DNA of 52,632 nt from Sedimenticola selenatireducens (lineage in GTDB: Bacteria; Pseudomonadota; Gammaproteobacteria; Chromatiales; Chromatiaceae), in contig NZ_VMNH01000029.1 of assembly GCF_007625115.1 (NCBI RefSeq), forward strand, positions 1-52,632, given 5' to 3'. A program made the translations under genes and the position numbers. This document shows, one piece after another, positions 51,854-52,632 of this stretch (position 1 is its first letter; the number at the start of each line of letters is the position of its first letter). The notes below the pieces were generated by a model. The model was not told the DNA's origin. It ran no database searches and was given only the letters and a program-made list of their open reading frames with translations.

Positions 51854-52045
51854 ATGTTAATTTTGACACGCCGTGTAGGTGAGACCCTGATGATCGGTGA
51901 CGAAGTGACTGTAACGGTGCTAGGCGTCAAAGGTAATCAGGTACGAATTGGTGTTAATGCCCCACGTGATGTAACAGTGCATCGTGAAGAAATTTACGAA
52001 CGCATCAAACGTGAGCAGACAGACCAGGAAATAGCAGACGAATAG
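51854..52045 (+). CDS. csrA: carbon storage regulator CsrA
   Basis: A 63-residue CsrA/RsmA. It starts [20 protein letters not shown] and has [20 protein letters not shown] (residues 37-56); Leu4 and Arg44 regions important for RNA binding are conserved. It binds GGA motifs in mRNA leaders to control translation. GGGAG lies upstream of the ATG, and that leader itself contains GGGAGATAGGA, so autoregulation is possible. It follows lysC, the usual gammaproteobacterial order, and precedes the position where relatives have tRNA-Ser. Confidence 0.97.
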
Positions 52046-52089: not shown

Positions 52090-52202
52090 CTTCTATTCAA
52101 TCGGGTGACCTTGTCGTCAGGTGTAAATTATTGTTTAAAATAGGGTGCATCAGTTACCCGATTTTAAGTGAATTCTTAGAAGCAATACGAAAAAAAATGG
52201 GT

Positions 52203-52208
52203 TAGAAT
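52203..52208 (+). promoter_or_regulatory. possible -10 box upstream of repeat array
   Basis: TAGAAT followed by the GC-rich ACGGCC resembles the -10 box and discriminator of tRNA promoters. No convincing -35 box lies 16-18 bases upstream; TTAGAA (52176-52181) is 21 bases away. Weak support only. Confidence 0.3.
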
Positions 52209-52229
52209 ACGGCCTCTTTTTGGTACAGG

Positions 52230-52245
52230 TGTTCTGTCCAGAACA
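52230..52245 (+). repeat. hairpin at the left edge of the array
   Basis: TGTTCT-GTCC-AGAACA is a perfect 6-bp hairpin directly before the diverged first repeat unit. It is not present in the later units, so it marks the array boundary. Confidence 0.5.
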
Positions 52246-52324
52246 AAGGAGGGGGGTGCAAAGCACTGAATAACGCGTGCCCCTCTATGATCCGTGAGGA
52301 TCATTAAAGCGTGTAGAAAGATTA
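52244..52324 (+). repeat. diverged partial unit of the 142-bp array
   Basis: Eighty-one bases match the right part of the 142-bp unit in exact register (GGTGC at 52255 against 52397). Differences are scattered, but the stems survive: GTGC-AAA-GCAC is kept (one outer pair becomes G-T), and ATGATCC/GGATCAT is unchanged while its loop changes from GTAA to GTGA. The tRNA-Ser segment expected at its left end is absent. It looks like an older copy. Confidence 0.8.
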
Positions 52325-52346
52325 GGAGAGCTGGCCGAGTGGCTGA
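52325..52346 (+). pseudogene. tRNA-Ser 5' fragment, copy 1
   Basis: The 22 bases from GGAGAGC to GGCTGA match the acceptor strand, positions 8-9, D-stem and D-loop start of a bacterial tRNA-Ser. A normal gene would continue AGGC; here the sequence departs into hairpins. No anticodon arm, long variable arm, T arm (GGTTCGAAT) or 3' acceptor strand (GCTCTCC) follows within the unit, so it cannot form a tRNA. Confidence 0.8.
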
Positions 52347-52466
52347 CAAGATCGTAAGCGATCTTGAACGTCCGAAGGACGGCCCCAAAGGGGTGAGGTG
52401 CAAAGCACCGAATAACGCGTGCCCCTGCATGATCCGTAAGGATCATTAAAACGCGGGAACAAATTA
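52325..52466 (+). repeat. 142-bp array unit 1 (tRNA-Ser 5' end plus five hairpins)
   Basis: After the tRNA fragment come five perfect hairpins: CAAGATCG-TAAG-CGATCTTG (52347-52366), CGTCC-GAA-GGACG (52369-52381), CCCC-AAA-GGGG (52383-52393), GGTGC-AAA-GCACC (52397-52409) and ATGATCC-GTAA-GGATCAT (52429-52446). About 58 of 142 bases are paired. The unit closes with ACGCGGGAACAAATTA before the next copy. No protein frame is conserved, since 142 is not a multiple of three. If transcribed it would be a highly structured RNA. Confidence 0.9.
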
Positions 52467-52608
52467 GGAGAGCTGGCCGAGTGGCTGACAAGATCGTAAG
52501 CGATCTTGAACGTCCGAAGGACGGCCCCAAAGGGGTGAGGTGCGAAGCACCGAATAACGCGTGCCCCTGCATGATCCGTAAGGATCATTAAAACGCGGGA
52601 ACAAATTA
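52467..52608 (+). repeat. 142-bp array unit 2
   Basis: Identical to unit 1 in 141 of 142 positions. The sole change is A to G at 52544 (unit 1 position 52402), in the three-base loop of the GGTGC/GCACC hairpin. The unit again opens with a 22-base tRNA-Ser 5' fragment and lacks the remaining tRNA. Near identity implies recent duplication or ongoing gene conversion. Confidence 0.92.
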
Positions 52609-52632
52609 GGAGAGCTGGCCGAGTGGCTGACA
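52609..52632 (+). repeat. 142-bp array unit 3, cut by window end
   Basis: The last 24 bases repeat the unit start, including the CA after GGCTGA that departs from a true tRNA-Ser. The array therefore continues beyond the window, and this copy also looks truncated. The total copy number and whether a complete tRNA-Ser ends the array cannot be seen. Confidence 0.85.

Follow-up and report, generated by a model that had tools for sequence, protein, structure and literature searches.

The repeats of the Escherichia coli tyrT locus and the rtT RNA have, to our knowledge, gone without an accepted explanation for decades. A small-RNA role for E. coli rtT RNA in amino-acid limitation or the stringent response has been suggested, and the RtT RNAs of Actinobacillus have likewise been proposed to work as small RNAs. 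At tyrT and tyrV the repeats read GGTTCGA, then CTCGAGCG..GAGTA, then ATCCTTCC, and thus hold the same hairpin series as the locus described here, placed in the T-loop of a tRNA (GGTTCGA^ATCC, with ^ marking the junction). For Actinobacillus, passages of one report place RtT RNAs upstream of tRNA-Asn and tRNA-Lys genes and describe the detection of RtT-family RNAs on Northern blots (PMC4986893), and a passage of another links rtT-like sequences to BIMEs (PMC2965389). Among the open-licence papers listed by the searches, we recognised no description of units split in the D-loop or of insertion of such an element into tRNA loops. Here, we analyse an array of serine tRNA fragments from Sedimenticola selenatireducens and read it, with a probability of about 65%, as the tandem amplification of a tRNA-Ser(GCU) fragment that carries in its D-loop a hairpin DNA element of the rtT-core kind, which is or once was mobile.

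The window, that is, the whole stretch of 52,632 nucleotides that was analysed, is an entire contig (G000:C5) with a single array found by TRF, at 52244-52632 (period 142, 2.7 copies, 94% matches). A 22-nt tRNA-Ser start recurs at 52325, 52467 and 52609 with an exact spacing of 142 bp, and a single base separates the two full units over their 142 positions (52402, A/G). Ahead of them, in register, a partial unit is identical to its counterpart in unit 1 at 67 of 81 positions, so both the period and the diverged leading unit of an earlier, sequence-only reading hold. Unit 3 already runs into the first two bases of the element (GGCTGACA), so at least three units begin in the window; the contig ends within the array, which makes the unit count a lower bound. 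The features are as follows.

51854-52045, + strand: csrA, the 5' neighbour of the array; its 63-aa translation is probably CsrA.
52178-52219, + strand: promoter-like block (AGAAGCAATACGAAAAAAAATGGGTTAGAATAC.GCCTCTTT) in the interval between csrA and the array; near-invariant in seven aligned genomes.
52244-52324, + strand: diverged partial unit with the 3' part of the element, the anticodon-side piece, the hairpin and the leader, lacking the tRNA 5' piece; matched against unit 1.
52325-52466, + strand: unit 1, 142 bp, from TRF and unit comparison.
52325-52346, + strand: tRNA-Ser positions 1-22 of unit 1, with the D-loop end GGCTGA; no difference from the 5' end of the intact tRNA-Ser(GCU) of contig C11.
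52347-52414, + strand: four-hairpin element of unit 1, 68 bp, C..GAATA; from a match to model R1, covariation and a sub-threshold RF02902 match.
52415-52428, + strand: resumed tRNA-Ser of unit 1, ACGCGTGCCCCTGC (AGGCGTGCCCCTGC in the intact gene), up to the anticodon; from comparison with the intact tRNA.
52429-52466, + strand: hairpin GATCCgtaaGGATC of unit 1 and tRNA leader; from sequence and folding.
52467-52608, + strand: unit 2, 142 bp, with its element at 52489-52556; from the R1 match.
52609-52632, + strand: start of unit 3, truncated at the end of the contig after the tRNA 5' piece and two bases of the element; from unit comparison.

Contig C11 of the same genome begins within a unit, 77 bp 5' of an intact tRNA-Ser(GCU). 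The second serine tRNA of the same genome, Ser(GGA), has a matching architecture and likewise lies at contig ends (C33, C4); its units are arranged as in the Ser(GCU) array, with an element that is different but alignable. Other genomes of the genus have matches at the equivalent locus. Soon 3' of the intact tRNA-Ser(GCU) on C11 lies an integrase-like reading frame (L005), recognised by eye and probably part of a genomic island. Elsewhere in the window, positions 19-212 match Rfam psRNA2 (RF02349) at 65.6 bits against a cut-off of 65.

Each unit runs from tRNA positions 1-22 (..GTGGCTGA, in the D-loop) into the 68-bp element (CAAGATCG..GAATA), then into the resumed tRNA up to the anticodon, and closes with a hairpin and the leader of the unit that follows. 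Judged by comparison with the intact gene, a unit is a tRNA-Ser copy split in its D-loop rather than a tRNA start followed by a spacer. The sequence-only reading had described the unit as a 22-nt tRNA start with hairpin-rich sequence after it; the tRNA-Ser 5' end and the hairpins were right, and the resumption of the tRNA 3' of the hairpins was missed. Its view that the array has no coding frame fits the + strand, on which the open reading frames reach just 51 and 36 aa, but the minus strand has an open frame of 102 aa that may or may not be coding. Across copies the element measures about 65-80 bp and follows the pattern C-H1-GARCG-H2-CCC..GGG-H4-GARTA. The letters GAACG, CCC..GGG, GAG and GARTA are conserved at unrelated tRNAs in many genera; the stems vary in sequence and length from copy to copy.

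Kinship with rtT was assessed with R2, a covariance model of 22 D-loop units that has no T-loop rows and keeps five to six tRNA flank positions at each end. R2 finds all four E. coli rtT repeats (23.7-30.8 bits, E of 2e-5 to 8e-4 in the 52 kb searched). It also has matches in 17 of 19 loci searched, including T-loop, MITE-borne and in-gene copies (2 of the 19 loci hold units of the model), and at E≤0.01 it finds nothing in the other two, L029 and L045. The array had been thought to be without a described equivalent, with rtT set apart as carrying the opposite tRNA end. The opposite end is real, the units here being built on the tRNA 5' part and split by the element in the D-loop; the separation from rtT falls with the R2 matches and with those of the Rfam RtT family (RF00391) in the same genome, which reach 57.0, 55.9 and 46.0 bits at three places on contig C26, above the gathering cut-off of 45 bits. 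These RtT loci hold tRNA-Tyr and tRNA-Gln(CTG), with the copies downstream of the tRNA; a further match, at tRNA-Gln(TTG), is sub-threshold.

A match of the array itself to a known Rfam family, which the same reading had named as evidence against it, did not appear above threshold. In positions 52100-52632 of the window RF00391 has no match at E≤10, and RF02902 (AaHKsRNA22) scores 34.5 and 33.4 bits on the window units (E about 1e-4), below its cut-off of 39.8. At the Ser(GGA) locus of the same genome RF02902 reaches 39.3 bits, again below the cut-off, and at the Ser(GGA) locus of a relative, G003, two D-loop units score 43.5 bits each, above it, and a third scores 33.5. The window array is best read as a D-loop variant of the rtT kind; since it stays below the threshold of RtT and is built on the opposite end of the tRNA, we do not file it as a member of RtT.

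The wider distribution was searched with R1, a model of 14 D-loop and 6 T-loop rows whose flank positions (GGCTGA/TTCGA at one end, ACGCG/ATCC at the other) bias its matches towards tRNA contexts and GA junctions. R1 scores 84.5 bits on unit 1 (52341-52419), itself a row of the model, and 86.5 bits on unit 2 (52483-52561). It has matches in 23 of 32 genomes of a near set at E≤0.001, and in 87 of 229 genomes and 78 of 196 genera of a class set at E≤1e-6, the own genome being included in both sets. We examined 146 copies, which are the matches outside the own genome among those listed for the class search. A tRNA gene lies within 600 bp of 101 of these 146 listed copies, against an expectation of about 2% that assumes 50 tRNAs in 3 Mb; 12 more lie at contig or locus ends, and 33 have no tRNA within 600 bp. 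Sorted strictly and with no row dropped, the 146 listed copies comprise 57 in T-loops, 9 on the 5' side, 36 that are T-like and 44 others. The 57 T-loop copies belong to Gln (19), Ser (18), Arg (13), Glu (2), Pro (2), Val, Thr and Tyr (1 each), and all nine 5'-side copies among the matches listed are at tRNA-Ser (seven in the D-loop, two in the anticodon loop).

An exact pattern, a serine 5' piece running into the element, picks out 58 stretches, with titles that include Marinobacter, Sedimenticola, Haliea, Lysobacterales, Porticoccaceae and Halothiobacillus and one Candidatus Polarisedimenticolaceae. A tRNA-Ser follows downstream at a distance of at most 600 bp in 43 of them, another 13 come within 400 bp of the end of the stretch, and 2 fall in neither group; a csrA match (tblastn) is found within 2.5 kb upstream in 35 of the 58, and at least two exact unit starts in 6. 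At one locus of G003 (L010), repeats follow tRNA-Ser and tRNA-Arg on the 3' side and a unit stands on the 5' side, so a single tRNA can carry repeats on both sides. Three loci of G010 and G019 (L117, L118, L123) hold the element only, in head-to-tail arrays with a spacing of about 67 bp, and no tRNA was found in these stretches. With a phage origin in mind, one pattern scan was run on viral_contigs; it gave 2 contigs, and ARAGORN found no tRNA in either locus. Two IMG/VR contigs (L353, L354) hold element copies at which no tRNA was found, with a common left flank that has CTTACnCAnGTAAGTGA.

The junctions point to a target rule. Left junctions end in GA in 138 of the 146 matches listed and right junctions read GA[AG][TC][AC]{1,2} followed by A in 126, both counts being biased because R1 contains those letters. 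A view of filled and empty sites comes from a MITE-like dispersed repeat, in which the element sits at GGCCGGA^ATCCAGG and the empty form reads GGCCGGAATCCAGG. Filled sites (left junction, at most 3 mismatches) number 30 in G006, 10 in G001 and 2 in the own genome, and empty sites (at most 2 mismatches) number 30 in G006 and 21 in G001. Both junctions were read in filled copies, and empty copies were read too, so that in G006 and G001 the element is precisely present or absent at a fixed target, the sites compared being paralogous ones within one genome. The filled copies may have spread as a composite. In G001 and G006 this MITE-like repeat (for example at L151, L152 and L157) has ends like GAATGGCACTTACTTAAG, and some copies hold a second short insert (ATCCTTAGGTCCGTAA..).

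Further sites follow the same rule. At L230 the anticodon loop of tRNA-Ser(CGA) houses the element in three units, at CTCGA^AA, and in G158 and G169 (L196, L197, L226, L227) in-frame copies of 72/75 bp sit at GTGGA^ATCC in four protein-gene copies, every copy seen having the insert. We looked for the D-loop motif G[GT]YYGAA in 170 distinct tRNAs from the fetched loci, a sample picked for lying near the element, and it occurs in 80 of 88 serine tRNAs and in 0 of 82 others; its confinement to serine tRNAs in this sample would explain why the 5'-side copies are at tRNA-Ser. The GA^A target leaves the preference of T-loop copies for Gln, Ser and Arg unexplained. Antisense matches of at least 7 nt to the tRNA flank occur in 23 of 77 parsable T-loop units with a full left flank (of the 146 listed), compared with 4% in an other-isotype control; at the D-loop loci 29 of 58 are parsable and 22 reach a 5-nt antisense match, where shuffles predict 31%. 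Inverted tRNA copies, being a minority feature, were rejected as a universal part of the unit. As for a mobiliser, an element copy was found in 2 of 20 Y1-transposase loci (RAYT and other Y1 types pooled), which leaves a Y1/RAYT transposase unsupported in that role.

Within the genus, the block at 52178-52219 is near-invariant in the window's genome and in six of eight relatives. A sigma-70 consensus scan did not call this block, and a scan for terminator-like sites found none within the array. The block may act as a promoter; given its conservation, the array, lying between it and the tRNA, is probably transcribed as a tRNA leader. Full units at the locus number at least two in the window's genome, one each in G002, G003 and G008, and zero in G001 and G006. 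G001, G002, G003 and G006 also hold a partial unit, which in G001 and G006 is all that remains. Copies at the equivalent locus in four relatives with full units are 82-92% identical, whereas the two serine loci of the own genome share 73%. Orthologues are thus more alike than the serine loci within one genome, which indicates that the serine-locus insertions are old and leaves recent movement there unsupported.

Several observations would suit a conserved structured RNA, in which the units are co-transcribed with the tRNA, freed by tRNA processing and act as small RNAs. The 142-nt unit folds with z = -5.7 (0 of 200 shuffles equally good), the conserved block stands upstream of an array free of terminator-like sites, and RtT-family RNAs of Actinobacillus give Northern signals, as noted above. 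The stems covary, with double-sided changes in 14 of 23 stem pairs in alignment A1 and 22 of 23 in A3 and a covariation score that 0 of 500 shuffles reach in either, A3 being fitted to the structure and the shuffles ignoring relatedness. In 147 of 189 elements it is the sense strand whose fold is the more stable, which leans towards RNA. However, the strong tolerance of G.U over C.A expected of a selected RNA is not seen in A1 or A3. Without the outer pair of the third hairpin, A3 has 23 G.U against 23 C.A, beside 97 other mismatches (47 against 32 with that pair), and A1 has 12 against 10 (23 against 11 with it), a comparison limited by misalignment, which inflates all mismatch kinds; tRNA acceptor stems, as a control, give 18 G.U and 0 C.A in 165 tRNAs. 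Predicted G.U fractions are 4.9 and 5.9% on the two strands of the element, 8.5 and 5.4% for tRNAs and 10.8% for shuffled elements. Because G.U is about as frequent as C.A and the strands have similar G.U fractions, the stem pattern favours upkeep as DNA palindromes over selection as RNA. In addition, just a partial unit is left at the locus in G001 and G006, the stems change in sequence and length, and the element also sits within a MITE-like repeat and a reading frame. We thus regard a structured RNA, one of the earlier suggestions, as unlikely; such an RNA may well be transcribed, but the substitution pattern does not favour RNA selection. Among the four roles proposed from the sequence, the mobile repeat is the best supported.

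The nearly strand-symmetric pairing would also suit neutral repeat dynamics without mobility, in which slippage or unequal recombination multiplies tRNA fragments and quasi-palindrome correction sharpens their hairpins; so would the near-identity of units within the array and the inverted tRNA-flank copies that adjoin the element in a minority of the T-loop units. Such dynamics seem improbable, since unrelated tRNAs in many genera share a four-hairpin core and its conserved letters, which needs one element that was inserted or copied, as do the filled and empty sites. The idea of a CsrA sponge, prompted by the neighbouring csrA, was considered and not adopted. Another possibility is a leader that would slow or tune tRNA-Ser maturation through extra 5'-half copies acting as decoy or misfolding partner. 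In the predicted fold of the G003 leader with its tRNA (358 nt), the unit 5' piece pairs with the 5' piece of the intact tRNA, including five of seven acceptor-strand bases. However, this is one static predicted minimum-energy structure whose share of the ensemble is negligible. Of the strictly sorted copies among the matches listed, most sit in T-loops on the 3' side (57, as opposed to 9), and unit number within the genus ranges from zero full units upwards, so that a decoy leader would be highly improbable. An assembly artefact, for which the contig end inside the array would speak, has next to no chance of accounting for the array, because the D-loop unit recurs in independent assemblies (43 of 58 loci with tRNA-Ser at most 600 bp downstream, 6 of 58 with at least two exact starts) and in a genome of just two contigs, G003.

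Under the preferred reading, an amplified tRNA fragment with a mobile hairpin element, the element would be a non-autonomous mobile element, present or past, that inserts at (Y)GA^A. Insertions into a tRNA gene would survive only next to an intact copy, which would give the layout of fragments beside an intact gene, and unequal recombination would alter unit number and homogenise the units. Transcription would start from the conserved block downstream of csrA, and the array would form the 5' leader of pre-tRNA-Ser, to be cut off by RNase P. We give even odds to the broader proposal that these elements form a class of very small mobile hairpin DNA elements, so far unrecognised and widespread among Gammaproteobacteria, which insert at (Y)GA^A and gather in tRNA loops (the T-loop, the serine D-loop and the anticodon loop of Ser(CGA)), in MITE-like repeats and, in frame, within protein genes. 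If so, the E. coli tyrT/rtT repeats would be insertion fossils kept as DNA palindromes, not as selected RNA. With copies in three kinds of tRNA loop (D, anticodon and T) as well as in MITE-like repeats and a reading frame, a one-locus oddity would become a family with a testable target rule, and two Rfam families, RtT and AaHKsRNA22, would be linked. The proposal also carries a caution, in that covarying stems here may stem from DNA palindromes instead of RNA function.

Set beside known systems, the array is closest to RtT/rttR (RF00391), with which it shares a multi-hairpin core between the halves of a split tRNA loop (GA^A), a tandem arrangement and a place beside an intact tRNA. In rtT the repeated tRNA piece is the 3' part, the T-loop houses the element and the units lie downstream of the tRNA; in the window that piece is the 5' part, the D-loop houses the element and the units lie upstream. 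AaHKsRNA22 (RF02902) of Aggregatibacter is filed by Rfam as an sRNA, and its model partly matches D-loop units; no paper came up under that name in the open-licence literature searched. The Rickettsia palindromic elements, which the present one may resemble, are also small palindromic inserts that occur in frame within protein genes, but they belong to another host group, and the present element has a preference for tRNA loops and forms tandem arrays beside tRNAs. With REP and BIME sequences it has in common that they are short, palindromic and dispersed, and it differs from them in its four hairpins and its tRNA-loop site.
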